NCBI GenBank assembly: GCA_017545585.1
Contig: JAFWMK010000013.1
Location: 1-44,702 of the forward strand
From: Candidatus Saccharimonadota bacterium
GTDB taxonomy: Bacteria > Patescibacteriota > Saccharimonadia > Saccharimonadales > Saccharimonadaceae
Reading direction: 5' to 3'
DNA length: 44,702 bases
Under the pieces are notes generated by a model. That model was not told the origin of the DNA, searched no databases, and worked only from the letters and a program-made list of their open reading frames with translations. Positions 1 to 10,175 of this stretch are shown here, one piece after another. Every line of letters starts with the position of its first letter. The first letter of the stretch is position 1. The position numbers were made by a program, and so were the translations under genes.

Positions 1-3
1 TGA

Positions 4-45
4 CTCCTTTGTATAGTTAATTGTTGTTATTCAAAAACTATTATA
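4..45 (-). promoter_or_regulatory. Promoter and ribosome binding site of a leftward gene off the window edge
   Basis: Read on the minus strand, a TATAAT box lies at 40-45 and an AAAGGAG Shine-Dalgarno site at 4-10, a few bases from the window edge. A minus-strand gene therefore probably starts just left of base 1. No -35 is convincing. Bases 46-146 hold nothing else recognisable. Confidence 0.45.
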
Positions 46-146
46 CTAGGCATAGATGTCTTTTTGTATATTAGACTTTTCTACAAATATATTTATCTGT
101 TAATGCTTATTTTGTTGCACTTGGAATTGGAACTTAGCCTGAATTC

Positions 147-176
147 TTGCACAGAAAAACAAAACTGTGTTATAAT
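147..176 (+). promoter_or_regulatory. Promoter of the phase-variable surface gene
   Basis: A -35 TTGCAC (147-152), an 18-nt spacer and a perfect TATAAT (171-176) preceded by TGT (extended -10). Transcription should start near 183, giving a short leader with GAGGT (198-202) just before the ATG at 206. The TTGC-type -35 recurs at the 38.5 kb, 40.5 kb and 44.5 kb promoters. Confidence 0.75.
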
Positions 177-205
177 GGTAATAGTTAAATAAGTTGAGAG
201 GTACA

Positions 206-265
206 ATGGCCATACATCATAATTTTCTAGATAAAATTCGCTCCAATATATATATATATATATAG
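206..265 (+). CDS. 19-codon leader ORF running into the TA repeat
   Basis: ATG at 206 follows GAGGT with a 3-nt gap and encodes MAIHHNFLDKIRSNIYIYI before a TAG at 263-265. The stop falls right after the TA tract, and the GTG of the surface gene begins one base later (267). With the present repeat number this is a separate short ORF that could allow termination-reinitiation. One more TA unit fuses it in frame to the surface protein. Whether the peptide itself matters is unknown; the ORF is more likely the real start of the downstream gene in its ON phase. Confidence 0.5.
   Translation: MAIHHNFLDKIRSNIYIYI
248..264 (+). repeat. (TA)n microsatellite at the translation start
   Basis: Seventeen bases of uninterrupted alternating A and T lie between the leader ATG (206) and the body of the gene. 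The distance 206 to 267 is 61 nt, so the frame is off by one. Gain of one TA unit, or loss of two, puts the ATG in frame. This is the classic geometry of slipped-strand phase variation. Confidence 0.7.
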
Positions 266-266
266 G

Positions 267-1562
267 GTGCGCAGCCTAAAACATTTCATTTCTGCACTAG
301 GAATTACGCTCCTTGTTGCAGTTTTTTGTGGCATCGCATCATCCATCGGGATTGGGAATAATAGGGCCTTTGCCGAATCTTCCGGTGGGCTACTTTTTAA
401 CGCCACAATGAATGGTGTTACTCTTGACCTAACTATTCCAAGTAGCACCGTATCTCTACAATTAGATCCTACTGCATCTCTAGAAGAGGCTAGCGCTAAG
501 GCTTTTGTAACTACTGATGCTCCATATGGTTACACTCTCATGATGACGGCGGACTCCACCAATCTTACTCGCACCACGCCTCTTCAGAGCGGAGATTATC
601 CAATCATTCCTACTCTTGCTTCTGATGCTACTTCGTTTACTGTCAACCACTGGGGTTGGCGATTATCGGCAGATAACAAATACTATGGATTTGATAATAA
701 CGGGGTTCAAGTAGGCTATTCAAGTGAGCCGGTCACAAATAAAGAAGAAACCATTGTCTTTGGTGCCAAAGCAGATTCGAGTATTCCGCTCGGTGATTAT
801 CAGTTAGCCCTTACTCTTACCGCTCTAGCTAATGCTAGGCCCGCTCTCACAATCTATGATATGGAAACCATGCAAGCTTTTAACGGCATAACTGTAGACG
901 ACCGATATTCTATCCTTGATTCCATGGTAGAAGGAGAGAGCTACACTTTAAAAGACTCTCGTGATAATCAAGACTATACTATCGCTAAACTTTTTGATGG
1001 CAATATCTGGATGACCAAAAACTTAAACCTAGCTGGTGGTACCGCTCTTTATTCAGACACCTCCAATGTCCCAGATGGCTATCCATCTTCTGGCAATAAT
1101 CCATACTATACTTTGCCAGCTTCTTCCACTTCTGGTTTTTCAAATGATTCTACTGCCTATGTTTATAATAGCGGCAGAACTAACTGTTCATCTCCAGGCT
1201 GTTACTCTTACTATTCTTACCCAGCTGCTACTGCCGGCACTAATCCAAATACTGATGGCGTGAACGCTACTTCAGACATCTGCCCAGCTGGCTGGAGACT
1301 TCCTACTAAATCAGAGTACGAAACCCTCATAGGCACATACAACACTGGCCCTAAACTTACCGCCAGTCCGTTCCTAGGCGTCTATGCCGGTAACTACTAC
1401 GGTTCTGCGTTCCGCTTCGGCGGCTCGTACGGCTACTACTGGTCCTCTACCGCTAGCGGTAGTACTACTGCCCACCTCATGTACTTCGGTGGTAGTGATG
1501 TCGCTGTGTCCAGCGGCGACGGTAAGAGGCGCGGTTACTCCGCCCGTTGCATATTACAGTAG
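267..1562 (+). CDS. Secreted FISUMP/C-type-lectin-like surface protein, candidate DGR target
   Basis: This is a 431-residue protein read from a GTG that has no Shine-Dalgarno site of its own. Residues 1-37 form a clear signal peptide ending near AFAES. Residues 40-195 match a beta-rich domain shared with the proteins at 4702 and 17115 (NHWGWRLS, FGAKAD, GDYQLALTLTA). Residues 230-431 are a FISUMP-type domain (WMTKNLNLAGG, CPAGWRLPTKSEYETL, GYYWSST, YSARC). The last 60 residues look like a diversity-generating retroelement variable region. There is no membrane anchor or sorting motif. The natural start may be the ATG at 206 in another repeat phase, which would give a longer, more basic signal-peptide n-region. 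Role in adhesion or host binding is inferred. It is convergent with topA. Confidence 0.85.
   Translation: MRSLKHFISALGITLLVAVFCGIASSIGIGNNRAFAESSGGLLFNATMNGVTLDLTIPSSTVSLQLDPTASLEEASAKAFVTTDAPYGYTLMMTADSTNLTRTTPLQSGDYPIIPTLASDATSFTVNHWGWRLSADNKYYGFDNNGVQVGYSSEPVTNKEETIVFGAKADSSIPLGDYQLALTLTALANARPALTIYDMETMQAFNGITVDDRYSILDSMVEGESYTLKDSRDNQDYTIAKLFDGNIWMTKNLNLAGGTALYSDTSNVPDGYPSSGNNPYYTLPASSTSGFSNDSTAYVYNSGRTNCSSPGCYSYYSYPAATAGTNPNTDGVNATSDICPAGWRLPTKSEYETLIGTYNTGPKLTASPFLGVYAGNYYGSAFRFGGSYGYYWSSTASGSTTAHLMYFGGSDVAVSSGDGKRRGYSARCILQ
1380..1556 (+). other. Putative DGR variable region (VR)
   Basis: Residues 372-428 contain 57 consecutive codons of which none ends in A: 32 end in C, 18 in T and 7 in G. 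Neighbouring codons use A freely. The protein pattern GYYWSSTA, then a run of exchangeable small or aromatic residues, then GYSARC, resembles C-type-lectin variable regions in which AAC/AAT codons of a template repeat have been rewritten as NNC/NNT. No template repeat or reverse transcriptase is visible in this window. Confidence 0.55.
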
Positions 1563-1586
1563 TAGCTCCAGTTCTGAACTATGCCC

Positions 1587-3881
1587 TTATTTCTTGGACT
1601 TAGCAGCAGTCTTTTTTCTTCCGCCTCTCACTCCGCGGCGAGTCTTGGTGGCTTTCTTGGCAGTTTTTGGCTTATTTTCGAGCATTTCTTTGGCCTGCTC
1701 CAAAGTAATCTTTTTTGGATCAATGTCTTTTGGAATTTTTACGTTGTTGCGACGACCCGGCCCTTTGATATATGGTCCATAAGCGCCATTGATAATCATA
1801 ACTTCGTCCCAATCGGCAATGATCGAGTCGATCTTTTTTTGATAAAGCGGCAATGCCTCTTCAAAAGTTACTATATAAGGGTCGTAATCTTTTATCGGAA
1901 TATTATATTTGCCGCCCTTGAGATACGGTCCAAATGGCCCACTGGCAGCAATTAGTTCTACGCCGTCCTTGGCTTTTCCGAGTACTCGCGGCAAAGCTGG
2001 AAGTTCCAACTGTGACAGAGCTTGTTCTAGAGTTACAGTCTTGGTGGATTTTCGCTTAGGTAGTGGCGCAAAACGCGGCTTTTCTCCAGACTCCTTTTCG
2101 TTATCGCCAAGTTGAATAAACCCGCCATTCTTCCCTACTTTGGCGTAAATCGGCTTACCAGTCTTTGGGTCGTGACCAAGAAGTCGCGCGTTATTGTATC
2201 GTTCTACCCCTTGCGCCACCAACACACTATCACGAAATGGTCCATAAAAATCTTTAAGCATCTTGACTCGTTCGAGCTTGGCATCCGCTACTAGATCCAA
2301 ATCCTTCTCGATATTAGCGGTAAATTTGTAATCCACGATATTTTTAAAATTATCCGTGAGAAACCCTGCCACCAGCTCACCGATTGGAGTCGGGACTAGT
2401 TTGCCTTTATTGGCTCCGTATTTTTCTTTCACTACATTGCGCGAAATTTTACCCCTCTCAGAAGTCAATTCTACGACTTCACGTTCTTCTCCTTCAGACT
2501 CGCCTTTCACTACGTAGCCACGCGCCTGAATTGCGGTCATGATTGAAGCGTAGGTAGACGGCCTTCCAATTCCGAGCTCCTCTAATTTTTTAACCAAAGA
2601 GCCTTCGGTATATCTTGCGGCCGGCTTGGCAAAAGTCTGCCGTGCAGTAAGCGACAAGCAGTCTACCTTATCTCCTTTAGTTACTTTTGGCAGTTCCAAA
2701 TCCTTACTCTTGCCATAAACCTTGAGAAACCCATCAAATATCACCACTTCACCTTTTGCGATAAAGTCATGCGATAATCTAATCGTGGTCTTGGCGACCT
2801 TGGCGTTGGCCATTTGGGTAGCTACTGTACGTGACCAGATTAAGTTGTAAAGACGTTTTTCGTAGTCATTCTTCCCCGCCGCAGTTCGAGTAATATCGGT
2901 CGGGCGAATCGCCTCGTGCGCTTCTTGTGCCGACGCGTCTTTAGTCTTAAAAACGCGCGTATGAAGATAATTTTTACCAAAGCTCGCTTCGATATATCCA
3001 GCGATCGTAGCTACAGCTTGCTTGGATAGATTCAAAGAGTCAGTTCTGTGGTAAGTAATCAAGCCAGCTTGATAAAGCCCCTGTGCCGCGCTCATTGTAG
3101 TTCTCGAAGAAAAACCTAGCTTAGCGTTAGCTTCAATCTGGAGAGAAGCTGTAGTGAAAGGCACTGGACCCGCTTTCGTTCCCTCGGTTTCCTCTACTGA
3201 TTCCACCATAAAATCAGATTTTGTCAAGTCTTCCAGTAGTTTGGTAGCGTTTTCTTCGTCCTTCGGCGTTTCCCCGTCGTAAGAGGCGTCAAAATCAGCA
3301 TCCTTATGGAATTTACCAGTCACCTTAAAAGTAGATTTGCTCTCAAATTTTTCAATTTCTTTTTCTCTTTCTACGATCAGTCTAAGGGCCGGTGACTGTA
3401 CTCGTCCAGCCGAAATAGCGCCTGGTACTTTCTTACGTACCATATCTGAAAGATCGTACCCTACAAGCATATCGAGAGTCTGTCTAGCTTGCTGTGAGGC
3501 CACCATATCCATGTCTACCGTGCGCGGATTCTTAATCGCTTCTTCAAGCGCCGGCTTGGTAATTTCATGAAAAGTAATTCTCGCAGTATTCTTTGGCAAT
3601 TTTAAAACTTCACATAAATGCCATGAAATCGACTCTCCTTCGCGGTCTTCATCGGTCGCGAGCCAGATTTTGTCGGCCTTTTTAGCTTCTTTTTCGAGTT
3701 CTTTGATAATAGATTTGTGTTCCGGATCAATCTCGTAAGTCACGTCAAAAGTAGACTTATCCACCTTGGTGTCCTTCCGAATGTGCCCTACCGAAGCCAA
3801 TACTTTAAAGTCTGAACCGAGATATTTCTCAATCGTGTGTGCTTTGGCTGGGCTCTCTACTATCACTAAGTTTTTAGACAT
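1587..3881 (-). CDS. topA: DNA topoisomerase I
   Basis: This is a type IA topoisomerase that relaxes negative supercoils. The start is ATG at 3881 (MSKNLVIVESPAKA), because the TOPRIM domain begins there; the 13 upstream codons are promoter DNA. Visible motifs are VIVESPAKAHTIEKYL and DEDREGE (metal-binding TOPRIM), and GLITYHRTDS with the catalytic tyrosine. About 764 residues. The C-terminal part has repeat modules (GPFGPYLKGG, GAYGPYIKGP) instead of cysteine zinc ribbons, then a very basic tail (TAKKATKTRRG to KSKK). TATAAT (3886-3891) ends 4 nt before the ATG and no Shine-Dalgarno is present, so the mRNA may be leaderless. The 3' end faces the surface gene with a 24-bp gap. Confidence 0.97.
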   Translation of the reverse strand: MSKNLVIVESPAKAHTIEKYLGSDFKVLASVGHIRKDTKVDKSTFDVTYEIDPEHKSIIKELEKEAKKADKIWLATDEDREGESISWHLCEVLKLPKNTARITFHEITKPALEEAIKNPRTVDMDMVASQQARQTLDMLVGYDLSDMVRKKVPGAISAGRVQSPALRLIVEREKEIEKFESKSTFKVTGKFHKDADFDASYDGETPKDEENATKLLEDLTKSDFMVESVEETEGTKAGPVPFTTASLQIEANAKLGFSSRTTMSAAQGLYQAGLITYHRTDSLNLSKQAVATIAGYIEASFGKNYLHTRVFKTKDASAQEAHEAIRPTDITRTAAGKNDYEKRLYNLIWSRTVATQMANAKVAKTTIRLSHDFIAKGEVVIFDGFLKVYGKSKDLELPKVTKGDKVDCLSLTARQTFAKPAARYTEGSLVKKLEELGIGRPSTYASIMTAIQARGYVVKGESEGEEREVVELTSERGKISRNVVKEKYGANKGKLVPTPIGELVAGFLTDNFKNIVDYKFTANIEKDLDLVADAKLERVKMLKDFYGPFRDSVLVAQGVERYNNARLLGHDPKTGKPIYAKVGKNGGFIQLGDNEKESGEKPRFAPLPKRKSTKTVTLEQALSQLELPALPRVLGKAKDGVELIAASGPFGPYLKGGKYNIPIKDYDPYIVTFEEALPLYQKKIDSIIADWDEVMIINGAYGPYIKGPGRRNNVKIPKDIDPKKITLEQAKEMLENKPKTAKKATKTRRGVRGGRKKTAAKSKK

Positions 3882-3885
3882 ATAT

Positions 3886-3891
3886 ATTATA
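3886..3891 (-). promoter_or_regulatory. -10 box of topA, possibly leaderless
   Basis: TATAAT on the minus strand with a 4-nt gap to the ATG. An alternative GATAAT lies at 3891-3896 with a 9-nt gap. The area is so AT-rich that the exact box is uncertain. Confidence 0.45.
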
Positions 3892-3951
3892 TTATCATAA
3901 AAATTTAAAAATAAAAACAATATTCTAACTACACTATATTTTTCAAGAAAA

Positions 3952-4554
3952 TCAAGATTTATGTTTTATTAGTATACCGAGCACTATTATAGCAGTAGCT
4001 GCGAATGCGGCTACACCAATAATAATACCTTCCTCTGCGGATAAATTAGAACCGTGAAAAAAATTACCAGTGTCTGGTACCACGATTGTTTCAGACGAAT
4101 CTCTGTTGTAAACTATGCGCAGACTACGCGTAGTCGTCACGCCATAGCCATTTACTCCGTCTACTTTGATGATAAAATTATTATACCCGCTATAATCATC
4201 TAAGTTTAGAACGGTATTTTTTTCTCCAATTACACCGTTAAAATTTTCTTGCCAAATTATCGTGTTTGCAACTTCACTACTATTCTCATCCAGGGTAATC
4301 AAGGTTGCGGTTGCGTTAAAAATATTTTCGTAGGTAGCCTTAAAATTATAATCTGGGGAGGTGGTTTCTTCTTCAGATACATTTGAAGTCAATTCCAATC
4401 TCGGTGCAAAATTAGAGGTCACCGTTACCGATGATGACGTTGCAAAAGTAGATGGAGCCAAAAAAGCCCCTGCGACAGCAATACAAAACGCTGCCAAACT
4501 TAACCTGTCAAGTATCCTTTGTTGTGTGTTTTTTATTTTTGTGAACCTTTTCAT
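3952..4554 (-). CDS. Secreted protein with VPDTG sorting signal
   Basis: A 200-residue surface protein. A long basic N-terminus and hydrophobic core (residues 1-39, ending PSTFATSSS) form a signal peptide. The middle is a short beta-rich, Ig-like segment (residues 45-150). Near residue 160 is VVPDTGNFF, followed by a hydrophobic helix (EEGIIIGVAAFAATAIIVLGIL) and the basic tail KHKS. This is the architecture of a sortase substrate with VPDTG in place of LPxTG. The likely enzyme is the sortase at 22459. It is divergent from the 1107-residue protein at 4702, with back-to-back promoters, and uses TTGACA-16-TATAAT. The leader contains AAGGT about 10 nt before the ATG. Function beyond wall anchoring is unknown. 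Confidence 0.8.
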   Translation of the reverse strand: MKRFTKIKNTQQRILDRLSLAAFCIAVAGAFLAPSTFATSSSVTVTSNFAPRLELTSNVSEEETTSPDYNFKATYENIFNATATLITLDENSSEVANTIIWQENFNGVIGEKNTVLNLDDYSGYNNFIIKVDGVNGYGVTTTRSLRIVYNRDSSETIVVPDTGNFFHGSNLSAEEGIIIGVAAFAATAIIVLGILIKHKS

Positions 4555-4579
4555 AAAATAATGACCTTATTTAAGCATA

Positions 4580-4641
4580 ATTATAATTTATAAAAAATAT
4601 TTGTCAATGGTATTGACATACTTTTTTTAGCATTGTAAAAT
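4580..4641. promoter_or_regulatory. Divergent promoters with abutting -35 boxes
   Basis: Minus strand: TTGACA (4602-4607), 16-nt spacer, TATAAT (4580-4585). Plus strand: TTGACA (4613-4618), 17-nt spacer, TAAAAT (4636-4641). The two -35 boxes form a dyad TGTCAAT-GGT-ATTGACA and are 5 bp apart, so the two surface genes could compete for polymerase or share a regulator. Confidence 0.7.
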
Positions 4642-4701
4642 TAATCACAAGAGTGTTGGCTAAATAAAAATATACTATCTAACATAAAGGTCATACATAA
4701 A

Positions 4702-7700
4702 ATGAAAAAGTCACAAAATTTAAGGTTTGCTAGTTTGGCAGCAAGTTTTTTGCTGTCTGCGATTATGGTACTATTTGTATCTCCAGCTATTATTAGGATC
4801 GATTCGGCAAGCGCTGCTACCGAAGGCGTTTCTAGCAATACTTGGTTGAATATGATTTCTGAATACGAAGAGGCCAGTGTAGACTTGAAAGTCGAAGACC
4901 CAAACGGCAGCTTTGCTACTTCTTCCGAAGAACAACTAGCTAAATTTAATGTGGCTACCAATAATTATACCGGATACACGCTTGCTATTAGCGGTCATTA
5001 CGGTAGTAGTTTGAATAATGAAGAGTCTGGCGCTAGTATAACTTCTATTGATGCTCCGATTTCTGAAGCGGATTTTAGTGCAAGCGCCGCCACGTCTTAT
5101 AATAATAAATGGGGTGTTAAATCAAGTAGGTGTATTAACAATTGCAACACGACTAGTCCAACCTACGCACCTTTATCGGACGGCAAATATCTCCCAGTTT
5201 TAGCTACCGGCACTACTTTAGACATCACTAGCACTGCCAACAGTACACCAAATGAATATGCTGTTGGTATAGGGGTTAGAGCTGGTGCTGATAGACCGGA
5301 GGGTGTCTACACTAACACCTTTATCCTTTCGGCTACCACCAACCCAGTAACTTACGATATTATTTACGCAGATAATACTGGCGATATAGAAGTATCTAAT
5401 CTTCCAGTTCCTGAAAGCGGCGTAATAGGAGAATTAAAAGTTCCCCTGTCGACAACTATCCCTACTAGGAAAAACTATACCTTTTTGAATTGGTGTCTCG
5501 GCGTTGCAGAAAATAATGCCACTACTTGCAACGGTTATTCATATGAAGCCGGCGAAGATTTTCCACTAGACAAAACTATTAATCCTGTGTATACTCTTTA
5601 TGCTATTTGGGAATCAGATGCTCATACAATCGAAGAGTCGTATACGATCAATCTAGATGGCAATGGTGCCACCAATAATTACAGTGAGTCCACTACGGTA
5701 AAAAGCCAGGCTACCCATATCGACCCAATCACAACTCAGCCGACTAGATCTTATACGATTTCTGGCTTTGCTAAAAATACGACTAGCGAGGGTGCAACTA
5801 TTTCTAGTACAGACAGCCTCACTTCTACATATGTCCTCACCGGTTGGTATAGTGATTCTGATACAGATAATGCTAACAAAATTGCAGATAATGCTAATTC
5901 CCCGCTACTTTTGCCAAACACTCCATTCACCGACGAAGATAGCAAGTGGAACGATACTTCTAACAATGTTACCCTCTACGCTGGTTGGGCGGAAGGGGCA
6001 GTAACGCTTCCTACTATCGCCAGAAACGGCTCTACCTGCGGTTGGGGTATCAGCGATACTGCCACATCCTACACCTATGCATCTGGTCAAACCATACACC
6101 CTATCTCTGATATGATTCTCTATGGTGTTTGCGTGCCTAACTCTTATCACCAAACCGTTCAAGTAAAGTATCAAAATGCAGATGGTACTTGGGGAGATTA
6201 CATTACTCACGATGCTTGTACTATAGACAAGATGTATGGTTCTACTCACTCCTGTACCATTTCAGCTACTGCCGAATATCAAGCTGCAAGTCTAGAATCC
6301 TATACGGTCTACGATGAAGAAACCAAACAAATTGATGTATACAGAAATACTAATACCGTAAGCCTAACTAAAGGCACTGGCGTTGCTAGCGTATCTATCA
6401 CCGGTGATGGTGTGAAAGACGGTTCTGGCACTGCGAACGCTACTGTATACTATAATGGAACGGTCACTATCGCGGCTACGTTATCTTCTAATTACGATTG
6501 GGTGAATTGGACCGGTAGCGCTACTTATACCAATCAAAGCCAATCTATTTCTGACGTAACCTCAGATTTGTCCTTTACGGCAAACGGAAAAGCAAGTATG
6601 TTGTCATTCCAGAATGCTACTATGGCCGATTGTGGACAGAATATGTATGATGATCGTGGCACTGCTGAGTACAAAAACATAATCTATACCACCGCTGAAA
6701 TCGATGGTCTTTGCTGGATGACTAGAAACCTAGACCTTCCAGGCGGCACCACATTGACACCTGCAGACTCCAATGTTTACGCCAGCTACACACTCCCGGC
6801 TTCTTCTACTGAAGGATTTTCGGATAGCTCTACCGCTTACGTCTATAATAGTAATAGCACAACTTGTGGCGACGATAGTCCTTGCTACTCGTATTATTCT
6901 TATAGGGCTGCTATGGCGGGTACAGATCCAGCTACAAGCCATATCATGGCATCGGATATTTGCCCAAAAGGTTGGCGATTGCCGCAAGAATATGAAGGTA
7001 TGAATTCGCCACTTGATGGTTCTGGTCCGTTTTATTCTGTTTACGCTGGCGATTTTGAAGATTCGACCTACACCAATAGTACTTGGGGCGAAAAATGGGG
7101 CCACTACTGGTTTTCTAATTCTGCTGGGGAAGATTATGCTCAGTACCTGTCTTTCAATGAAAGCTATGGTGATAGTGCGATGGCTCCTAGTAATATCGGC
7201 GTCTCGGTGCGTTGCGTGCTTGAAAATCGTACCCCATTTGAAAAACTCGAGCATCAATCGATTAGTATGCAAGAAATCGGCAAACTTAGCTCATCAGAAA
7301 AAGCCAACCTCCTGTCAGAAATTTATGAGCTATATAATGGGTGGGCTTCTATGGAATATTATATCGCAGATGAACGCGACGGCCAAACTTATATTGTCAA
7401 AATGCTTGATGATGGCAGGTTTTGGATGATGACCAATCTTAACCTCGGTGCAACCACGCTGACTAACGACCTCACTAGTAGTAACACTAATCTTTCTACG
7501 ACTATTCCTGCCAGTACCTTTAATGGCTACAGAAAAACTTCTGCAACAGCTACTACTACTGCAGCAGAGTATATCCCGGTGCTTGGCGCGGATCAATGTA
7601 GTGGTTTGTCGTCATATTGTGATCCAGACTACGAATTACCATATGGGACTCTGTATAATTATTGTGCAGCCTCTGCTAATAGTATTTGCACAGAAAATAA

Positions 7701-8025
7701 CTCAGATAATGCCGCATATGATATTTGTCCTAACGGTTGGGGGCTACCAACTATCGGAGATTTTCAGACTCTATATAATCAAGAAAAGTATAATTCTAAT
7801 GAATATATGAGAACATCCTACCATTATGAACGCGCGGCCTTTACTCTTGCGGGTAATTTCACTAATGGTATGCCAGAAAATCAAGAAAGCTTCGGTAACT
7901 ATTGGTCTAACACACGAAGCTCTGATTCGGGTATGTATGGCCTCAATCTTGATACCTCAAACGTTAATCTATCCACTAGCATCGACCGAGGGTCTGGTAG
8001 CTCGATTAGGTGTATTCTTAAATAA
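4702..8025 (+). CDS. Large secreted InlB-repeat/FISUMP surface protein
   Basis: A 1107-residue protein. Residues 1-37 are a signal peptide. Residues 40-215 are the beta-rich domain shared with the proteins at 267 and 17115 (NNKWGVK, VGIGVRAGADRPEGVYTN). Residues 215-430 hold two InlB/Listeria-Bacteroides-type repeats (YTFLNWCLG, YTLYAIW; YVLTGWYSD, VTLYAGW). Residues 540-635 resemble a divergent InlB repeat (DWVNWTGSA). Two FISUMP domains follow: about 645-835 (GLCWMTRNLDLPGG, CPKGWRLP, VSVRCVLE) and 875-1107 (FWMMTNLNLGA, CPNGWGLPTIGDF, SSIRCILK). The first FISUMP closely matches the gene at 267 (YTLPASST, STAYVYNS, CYSYYSY). Its codons are ordinary, unlike the variable-region candidate. There is no anchor motif. 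An adhesin or host-surface binding role is inferred. Confidence 0.85.
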   Translation: MKKSQNLRFASLAASFLLSAIMVLFVSPAIIRIDSASAATEGVSSNTWLNMISEYEEASVDLKVEDPNGSFATSSEEQLAKFNVATNNYTGYTLAISGHYGSSLNNEESGASITSIDAPISEADFSASAATSYNNKWGVKSSRCINNCNTTSPTYAPLSDGKYLPVLATGTTLDITSTANSTPNEYAVGIGVRAGADRPEGVYTNTFILSATTNPVTYDIIYADNTGDIEVSNLPVPESGVIGELKVPLSTTIPTRKNYTFLNWCLGVAENNATTCNGYSYEAGEDFPLDKTINPVYTLYAIWESDAHTIEESYTINLDGNGATNNYSESTTVKSQATHIDPITTQPTRSYTISGFAKNTTSEGATISSTDSLTSTYVLTGWYSDSDTDNANKIADNANSPLLLPNTPFTDEDSKWNDTSNNVTLYAGWAEGAVTLPTIARNGSTCGWGISDTATSYTYASGQTIHPISDMILYGVCVPNSYHQTVQVKYQNADGTWGDYITHDACTIDKMYGSTHSCTISATAEYQAASLESYTVYDEETKQIDVYRNTNTVSLTKGTGVASVSITGDGVKDGSGTANATVYYNGTVTIAATLSSNYDWVNWTGSATYTNQSQSISDVTSDLSFTANGKASMLSFQNATMADCGQNMYDDRGTAEYKNIIYTTAEIDGLCWMTRNLDLPGGTTLTPADSNVYASYTLPASSTEGFSDSSTAYVYNSNSTTCGDDSPCYSYYSYRAAMAGTDPATSHIMASDICPKGWRLPQEYEGMNSPLDGSGPFYSVYAGDFEDSTYTNSTWGEKWGHYWFSNSAGEDYAQYLSFNESYGDSAMAPSNIGVSVRCVLENRTPFEKLEHQSISMQEIGKLSSSEKANLLSEIYELYNGWASMEYYIADERDGQTYIVKMLDDGRFWMMTNLNLGATTLTNDLTSSNTNLSTTIPASTFNGYRKTSATATTTAAEYIPVLGADQCSGLSSYCDPDYELPYGTLYNYCAASANSICTENNSDNAAYDICPNGWGLPTIGDFQTLYNQEKYNSNEYMRTSYHYERAAFTLAGNFTNGMPENQESFGNYWSNTRSSDSGMYGLNLDTSNVNLSTSIDRGSGSSIRCILK

Positions 8026-8079
8026 TCAGTTAACAAGTTGATGTGGTCTTTAAGGGTTACTTTTTTCACCTCAATGTAG

Positions 8080-8085
8080 TATAAT
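8080..8085 (+). promoter_or_regulatory. -10 box giving a leaderless ABC transporter mRNA
   Basis: TATAAT ends exactly 6 nt before the ATG at 8092, so position +1 should be the A of the start codon. No Shine-Dalgarno and no good -35 is visible. Confidence 0.65.
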
Positions 8086-8091
8086 CTTTTT

Positions 8092-8862
8092 ATGGAAAAA
8101 GTTATTGAAGCAAAAAACCTCAAAAAGGTTTATGGCAAGAAGTCGGCTGTCTTTACTGCCCTCAAAGGCGTTGATCTCGATATTTACGAGGGTGAATCTG
8201 TTGCAATTGTCGGTAAATCCGGCTCGGGTAAGTCTACCCTTATGCATCTTTTGGCGCTCCTCGATACGCCTACATCTGGTACTATCAAAATCGACGGTGA
8301 AGAATCAACAAAGCTTTCTAAAAAAGAACTCAACAAACTTCGTAACTCACGGTTTGGTTTTGTGTTTCAGCAATTCTTTATGAACCCCAAAGACACTGTT
8401 TTAAACAACGTGGTACTTCCCCTAAAAATCGCAGGGATCTCTAGAAAAAAACGTAAACAACTAGCTATGGACGCCCTAAAGATCGTTGATCTTGAATCTA
8501 AAGCCAAAAACAAGGCTACTGATCTATCCGGCGGACAAAAACAGCGAGTCTGTATTGCCCGGGCGATCGTAAATAACCCTAAAATTATCTTTGCTGATGA
8601 GCCGACCGGCAACCTCGATTCAGCTACTGGCGACAAAATTACCGACCTCCTCTTTGATTTAAACAAAAAGCAAGGCGTTACTTTAATTGTTGTGACCCAC
8701 GACGAGGACTTGGCTAAACTTTGCCAGAGGATCGTCAGGATTTCAGATGGTAAAATCATCGCCGATAATAGCGTCAGGAAAGATACCGCAAAAAAGGCAT
8801 CTGAGCGTCGCGAAAAAGAAGCCGCCAGAGTTAAAAAAGCCAATGAAAAGGAGGCAAAATAA
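8092..8862 (+). CDS. ABC transporter ATP-binding protein (MacB/LolD type)
   Basis: A 256-residue ATPase subunit that powers the permease encoded immediately downstream. Walker A is GKSGSGKST (about residue 41), the signature is LSGGQKQR, Walker B is IIFADEPTGNLDS, and the H-loop is VVTHDED. The residues after about 230 are a lysine/glutamate-rich extension (KKASERREKEAARVKKANEKEAK). The stop overlaps the next start (TAATG), so the two are translationally coupled. The family exports lipoproteins, peptides or antibiotics; the substrate here is not deducible. With TATAAT 6 nt upstream and no Shine-Dalgarno, the mRNA is predicted leaderless. Confidence 0.93.
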   Translation: MEKVIEAKNLKKVYGKKSAVFTALKGVDLDIYEGESVAIVGKSGSGKSTLMHLLALLDTPTSGTIKIDGEESTKLSKKELNKLRNSRFGFVFQQFFMNPKDTVLNNVVLPLKIAGISRKKRKQLAMDALKIVDLESKAKNKATDLSGGQKQRVCIARAIVNNPKIIFADEPTGNLDSATGDKITDLLFDLNKKQGVTLIVVTHDEDLAKLCQRIVRISDGKIIADNSVRKDTAKKASERREKEAARVKKANEKEAK

Positions 8863-10175
8863 TGAAAATTTCAGATATTATCGCTTCGGCAAATTCAAAT
8901 TTATTCAGAAACAAAACTAGAACTTTTCTTACTATCCTAGCTGTATTTATTGGTTCGTTTACGATTATTTTAAACTCAGCTATCAATACTGGTGTAAATA
9001 GTTATATCGATAAGCAACTCGAAGCCGCTGGTGGCGAGGGTTATCTAGAGATTATGACAAACGAAGCTGTCGATATTATGTCATCAATGATGAGTAGTAG
9101 TTCAGAGGTCAAGGAGTATCGCGAAGCTTCAGGCAACGATCAAAAATCTACTTATATTACTGATGAGCAGATCGAGAAAGCTCGTCAAATTCCAGGACTC
9201 GAATCGATCGATTTGATTTATTCAGCCAACCCAGAGTATATCAAGGCCAAAGATTCCGATAAAAAGTTCGCCGTAACTAACTTAAACTTAATGCCAAGAG
9301 GAAATGTAAATCTTGATACTACTGCCGGCCGAAAGCCAGATGCAAATACAGATAAGCTGGAGGTGGCTTTGACCGAGGCTTACGTCAATGCGTTAGGCTT
9401 TTCGAGCGACGAGGATGCTATCGGTAAGATCGTGACTTTTGCGGTACCGAATACAGTCGAATGTTATATGGTTTCAAAACATTCAGATTGCTTAAAGATG
9501 GTCGATGCCGAAGTGGTCGGTGTCCAGGCCCCAAGCATCATGGCTATGGGTGGAATGCGCGCAAACCTTGCTCTCAATCAAAAAATCTACGATCTAGCTA
9601 CTGACGGCATGCCGGAAGAAGCCAAAAGGCATGCTTTTCAGGCTACAGCTCAGGTTGACCCAGAAAAGATAGATGAAATCAAGGAAAAACTTAAAGAAGT
9701 GGGGCTAGCTGCGATGACGATTGATGATGAAGTCGGTATGATCAAAGTATTCTTTGATGCGATTCTAGTGGTCTTTAGTATCTTCGGTGGGATTGCACTT
9801 CTAGCCGCTTCGATTGGAATTATCAATACTCTGTTTATGTCGGTGCAAGAACGTACCCGTGAAATTGGCTTAATGAAGGCGATGGGTATGAGCAACGGAA
9901 AAATTTTCTTTAGTTTTTCTTGCGAGGCAATCTTGCTCGGCTTTTGGGGTTCGGTAGTCGGGGTAGTATTTTCTATGATAATCGGTACAATTGGTGACAA
10001 AATCGCTCACGAATCATTCTTAAAAGATTTTCCAACCTTCGAACTAGTAAAATTTGATCCGATTAATATGCTGGTTATTGTGTTAATTATTATGTTTATT
10101 GCATTTCTCGCTGGGACTTTGCCAGCAAGACGAGCCGCCAAAAAAGATCCGATTGATGCACTAAGATACGAGTAG
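8862..10175 (+). CDS. ABC transporter permease (MacB/FtsX family)
   Basis: A 437-residue membrane partner of the preceding ATPase. There is one transmembrane helix near the N-terminus (TRTFLTILAVFIGSFTIIL), a large extracytoplasmic MacB-type periplasmic core domain (about residues 45-275), and three C-terminal helices of the FtsX domain (FDAILVVFSIFGGIALLAAS, ILLGFWGSVVGVVFSMIIG, MLVIVLIIMFIAFLAGTLP). The motif TREIGLMKAMG and the ending ARRAAKKDPIDALRYE are typical of the family. It overlaps the ATPase by one base and is followed by a strong terminator at 10188. It probably moves a substrate or remodels the envelope at the outer face of the membrane. Confidence 0.92.
   Translation: MKISDIIASANSNLFRNKTRTFLTILAVFIGSFTIILNSAINTGVNSYIDKQLEAAGGEGYLEIMTNEAVDIMSSMMSSSSEVKEYREASGNDQKSTYITDEQIEKARQIPGLESIDLIYSANPEYIKAKDSDKKFAVTNLNLMPRGNVNLDTTAGRKPDANTDKLEVALTEAYVNALGFSSDEDAIGKIVTFAVPNTVECYMVSKHSDCLKMVDAEVVGVQAPSIMAMGGMRANLALNQKIYDLATDGMPEEAKRHAFQATAQVDPEKIDEIKEKLKEVGLAAMTIDDEVGMIKVFFDAILVVFSIFGGIALLAASIGIINTLFMSVQERTREIGLMKAMGMSNGKIFFSFSCEAILLGFWGSVVGVVFSMIIGTIGDKIAHESFLKDFPTFELVKFDPINMLVIVLIIMFIAFLAGTLPARRAAKKDPIDALRYE

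Follow-up and report, generated by a model that had tools for sequence, protein, structure and literature searches.

A probable diversity-generating retroelement variable region at the end of a FISUMP protein with a predicted C-type-lectin fold in a Saccharibacterium

Does the C-terminal end of a surface protein encoded at the edge of a contig of a gut Saccharibacterium owe its sequence to a diversity-generating retroelement (DGR), a system that uses reverse transcription to alter binding proteins rapidly? The gene lies on the 44,702-nucleotide contig JAFWMK010000013.1 of the Candidatus Saccharimonadota assembly GCA_017545585.1 (the whole contig, C9 in our numbering, is referred to below as the window), and the initial annotation had proposed that its 3′ end resembles a DGR variable region (VR). 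The assembly comprises 548,845 bases in 21 contigs, is 76% complete and breaks off at window base 1. The encoded protein exceeds the cut-offs of the FISUMP profiles TIGR02145 (62.5 versus 41.65 bits) and PF09603 (41.3 versus 33.9 bits) and misses that of Lcl_C, PF07603 (32.6 versus 34.9 bits). The features discussed here are collected in Table 1.

Table 1. Positions, strands and supporting evidence of the features in the window
Feature	Positions	Strand	Basis
Contig-end segment common to other contig ends	1..141	.	99–100% with C5 and C13
Probable full gene, ATG at 206	206..1562	+	GAGAGG Shine-Dalgarno-like sequence; C19 paralogue in frame
(TA)9 tract after the start codon and ahead of the signal peptide; putative phase-variation switch, in the OFF state in the assembly	246..264	+	
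FISUMP surface protein open frame, listed with GTG start	267..1562	+	signal-peptide-like N-terminus
FISUMP/Lcl_C-like domain, predicted C-type-lectin fold	945..1559	+	profile matches, structure model
Probable DGR-type VR, FLGVYAG...GYSARC to stop	1371..1562	+	template homology, codon signature, controls
Paralogue, FISUMP modules without adenine signature (control, outside the VR system)	4702..8025	+	codon counts, template test

The codon signature that had drawn attention to the region was confirmed. None of the 57 codons at 1380–1550 ends in A and 50 end in C or T, whereas the upstream 371 codons of the same gene include 77 ending in A and 257 ending in C or T. At the gene's own rate, the chance of finding no A in 57 codons is 1.7e-6, and that of at least 50 C/T endings is 0.001. 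Only two of 11,806 sliding windows of 57 codons, taken over all 34 genes of the window, are free of third-base A, and both fall in this region. The contrast that had been claimed to the homologous FISUMP domains of the 4702 paralogue also held, since 5 and 9 of 57 codons end in A there. The span first given, 1380–1556, did not fit the count, because it covers 59 codons, of which the last two (ATA TTA) end in A; the 57 codons correspond to 1380–1550. By itself, the third-base A test was treated as a lead only.

Evidence from real DGRs came from the same genus. RVT_1 was detected in 60 of 100 genomes, and 20 stretches anchored on a reverse transcriptase (RT) were searched for repeat pairs with mismatches on the adenines of one copy. 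All 20 loci contain such a template/VR pair, with 0–2 non-A and 7–28 A mismatches over 84–303 nt. YxDD and IGNxxSQ-like RT motifs, which are typical of DGR RTs, were present in 19 loci; the motif scan detected no such RT in stretch L068. The variable protein of most loci ends in the frame of the window protein, GS.G.YWSSTA....AY.L......G.SVRC, and several of these proteins are its detectable homologues. One DGR variable protein (stretch L050, 9376–9520, minus strand, G052:C30) has a different tail, FWLLSP...GVRPAIS, and the genus therefore directs DGRs at more than one target type.

Templates of the window VR's own class were found in two genomes, at G012:C24:6359-6569 and G005:C7:27982-28173, with RTs close by (G012:C24:6741-7856 and G005:C7:28230-29339, respectively). 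Compared with the G012 template, which comes from another species, the window VR has mismatches at 35 of 55 adenines and at 25 of 122 other bases (p=4.4e-8). The encoded amino acid is changed at 19 of 20 AAY codons versus 9 of 39 others, and the third base is retained at 17 of the 20 AAY codons. The comparison was extended to ten modules of the window's own genome aligned with 16 genus templates: AAN columns of the templates are those at which the modules vary at codon positions 1 and 2 (Spearman 0.78, p=9e-13, a value that treats columns as independent and is indicative), and nearly all third bases of the modules at these columns are C or T. The adenine excess was absent in FISUMP modules without the codon signature (p=0.11 and 0.62 for the modules of the 4702 paralogue). 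The adenine-concentrated mismatches and the column correlation support the original reading of this region as a VR. Homology to real templates places its start at 1371 (TTC of FLGVY) and its end no earlier than 1550 (TGC of SARC), and it reaches the stop codon at the 3′ end of the gene, within the predicted C-type-lectin-fold domain.

An AF2 model of residues 200–431 of the protein (pLDDT 87.5) had as its closest structural match the C-terminal domain of Legionella Lcl (Z 8.0, 3.1 Å over 110 residues). The model was also matched by TvpA of Treponema denticola (PDB 2Y3C; Z 6.6, 3.5 Å over 126 residues), itself a DGR variable protein with a C-type-lectin fold, although TvpA is a spirochaete protein with 12% identity and the Legionella domain matches better. 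The Bacteroides structure 4EPS followed with Z 5.8; these Z values are moderate, but the matches bring together many different lectin-like domains. Foldseek on its own found nothing at E≤0.001, so the fold assignment comes from a second structural aligner; searching PDB sequences with the profile of the domain yielded nothing at E≤1. We predict that the domain adopts a C-type-lectin fold. This predicted fold, together with the signal peptide, points to the binding of ligands on host cells or in the environment as the probable role of the protein.

If several genes were rewritten from one template, their VRs should agree at silent sites, and sibling pairs in which this is seen are known from two genomes. 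Of 36 pairs compared in the window's own genome, the two strongest were those on C14 and C13. The C14 pair, within one 1,687-codon ORF, shows 1/41 synonymous differences in the VR versus 39/114 upstream (p=1.6e-5), with 17/59 and 26/144 non-synonymous differences, respectively. Synonymous differences of the C13 module pair were 6/43 in the VR versus 50/105 upstream (p=8.6e-5). The other own-genome pairs showed no silent-site reduction, or silent change in the VR above the upstream level, which would fit several template lineages. A VR pair in G142 has no synonymous difference at 38 sites versus 45/106 upstream (p=6.5e-8), and 20/59 non-synonymous differences versus 36/147. Homogenisation of this kind between siblings is as would be expected of homing from a shared template. 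Homing to more than one gene is also seen in G005: all 20 mismatches between its template and a nearby VR (215 nt) fall on A, and so do all 22 (of 58 A) between this template and a module inside a different gene on a different contig (180 nt).

In G142 a coding module on C13, at the end of an 860-codon open frame, is close to an unmutated template, and other VRs differ from it by 15–20 A versus 1–6 other mismatches (pairs without length difference). This module is the last of a coding FISUMP array (stretch L180, 7284–9866, minus strand); its sequence (NGNYWSSTANNSSNAYNLNFNSSNANVNNNNKRNGFSVRC) lies in an ORF and looks like that of a DGR template that has not been mutated.

We conclude that 1371–1562 very probably encodes the variable face of a secreted protein with a FISUMP domain of predicted C-type-lectin fold, and was shaped by DGR mutagenic retrohoming. 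This reading is based on template homology, adenine-biased mismatches, the predicted lectin fold, the template/VR/RT sets of the genus and one-template, multi-gene homing in relatives. In the proposed mechanism, a template RNA rich in AAC and AAT codons would be copied by an error-prone RT that misreads adenines, and the cDNA would take the place of the 3′ part of the target gene. The outcome would be C or T in third positions and amino acid changes dispersed over what had been AAY codons, with other bases unchanged. Counting against this reading are the 25 non-A mismatches, in a comparison made with the template of another species, and the fact that the assembled gene is not in frame with its ATG.

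The main rival is that the VR is a relic, made by an ancestral DGR whose RT has since been lost, leaving ordinary mutation and duplication to drive the copies apart. The initial annotation had placed the RT and the template beyond the window. This fits the result that neither is present in the window or in the 76%-complete assembly of its own genome: Pfam RVT_1 and a profile of five genus RTs found no RT, and DNA searches with the window VR and the G012 template matched coding copies only. An RT was likewise not found in the G142 assembly, which is 95% complete and carries VR-like modules, and RVT_1 is missing from 40 of the 100 genus genomes, including 24 of the 63 that are at least 90% complete. 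Moreover, silent differences between the window VR and its nearest siblings amount to 7/39 and 8/35 columns, only mildly below the upstream level (p ~0.1). It is therefore not a fresh copy of the siblings' template, and, since its silent-site similarity to them is only mildly raised, present DGR activity on this copy is uncertain. Against the relic stand the G142 and C14 pairs, in which near-absent silent change accompanies amino acid change and points to recent homing; the RT locus is thus probably lacking from RT-negative assemblies rather than from the genomes. In addition, many members of the family are found near the ends of contigs, which is where repeats drop out of assemblies. We consider a relic unlikely, and infer that the RT and template are present in the unassembled part of the genome and act in trans on the window gene.

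The window's own small genome has about 19 FISUMP modules. Family members on C5, C6, C7, C9, C12, C13, C14, C17 and C21 are mostly within a few kb of contig ends, which suggests that the repetition or variability of these genes interrupts assembly. A segment of 138–141 bases is shared at 99–100% by window positions 1–141, the end of C5 and the start of C13, and at about 90% by the ends of C18 and C4. It is probably a point beside these genes at which the assembly graph branches. Three tandem-domain ORFs, on C6 (L135, 944 codons), C14 (L134, 1,687 codons) and C13 (L138, 992 codons), contain several VR-like modules each, mostly internal and fewer C-terminal. Named relatives of the window protein in a GTDB r220 scan were mostly from ruminant-gut Candidatus Saccharibacteria, and no closer copy was found there. 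A search of IMG/VR with the protein gave no relatives and hence no sign of phage origin. Rfam had no match on window positions 1–9000.

Gene conversion among the FISUMP paralogues could swap VR cassettes and homogenise silent sites, and the number of modules in one small genome, the tandem arrays in single ORFs and the shared contig-end sequence would favour it. However, conversion lowers all differences, whereas here silent differences are near zero and amino acid differences are at or above the upstream level. As the sole cause it is rejected on the silent-site test and we regard it as very improbable, although it may act in addition to a DGR. Least credible of all is plain diversifying selection acting on residues of exposed loops, combined with a preference for C/T-ending codons and no retroelement: surface lectin-like proteins commonly diversify, and FISUMP copies without the codon signature vary in loops too, but selection would neither hold the third codon position constant against change at the first two nor direct the change to columns that are AAY in templates from other species. 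Paralogous modules with comparable constraints have no A excess, and the AAN-column, silent-site, G012-template and control tests largely refute selection alone.

The DGR reading agrees with what is known of such systems. CPR bacteria have their own cellular DGR clade, clade 2 of Patescibacteria/CPR (Roux et al. 2021, PMC8144416). The present case shares with it a cellular CPR setting and VRs in C-type-lectin-fold domains, and differs in that RT and template were not recovered for the window's own genome. Fib_succ_major and DUF1566 (Lcl_C) domains are known DGR targets in human microbiomes (PMC4159848); the target families, the position of the VR at the domain end and the adenine-specific change are the same, whereas here there are many paralogous modules, some tandem and ORF-internal, in a Saccharibacterium. 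In Thiohalocapsa PB-PSB1, DGRs act in trans from a template located elsewhere, and targets contain tandem VR-bearing lectin domains (PMC10907252). Action in trans, proposed for the window gene, and tandem VR-bearing lectin domains are features of both, but that organism belongs to another phylum and its targets are conflict-system sensors, whereas those described here are secreted FISUMP proteins. From the known target domains, the CPR DGR clade and the known trans and tandem cases, the window VR therefore belongs to a known kind.

A second source of variation may act at the other end of the gene. The frame opened by the ATG at 206 stops just past the TA tract and would join the 267–1562 frame after a change of +1 or −2 units. 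Two paralogous 5′ ends, those on C13 and C2, also have 9 TA units and are likewise out of frame; in the C19 paralogue, which has (TA)4, the corresponding ATG is in frame. The whole assembly contains only four tracts of at least seven TA units, each at the 5′ end of a gene of the surface-protein group, which makes phase variation by slippage likely. One of them, on C21, has 9 units in a non-homologous context and is in frame through the tract, and its frame ends after 93 codons. Tracts of (TA)n at surface-protein 5′ ends were recorded at window positions 206–266 and in stretches L137, L132, L133 and L026. The extended TA motif was absent from the 169 other genus genomes searched, and the 5′ ends of the variable proteins of the 20 relatives showed no such tract. 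Judged from these tracts, on/off switching by TA slippage probably adds to the hypervariation. The arrangement as a whole, (TA)n tracts switching single genes and one or few trans-acting DGRs rewriting lectin-fold VRs, internal tandem modules included, is proposed tentatively, at slightly less than even chances. The combination of a VR with a phase switch is the part for which we found no description: the titles and abstract openings covered by our literature search mention no gene subject to both a DGR and phase variation.

Saccharibacteria have a lifestyle of attachment to other cells. To the largely open question of how partners are recognised or defences evaded, a family of lectin-fold surface proteins hypermutated by retroelements contributes concrete candidate recognition proteins. 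Short-read genomes of the group may lose these very loci, because family members are often at contig ends. Most genomes of the genus carry RTs, and variation at template adenines provides a population-level test of these proteins. If the stacked arrangement is true, a genome of well under 1 Mb would hold an antigen- or receptor-like repertoire.
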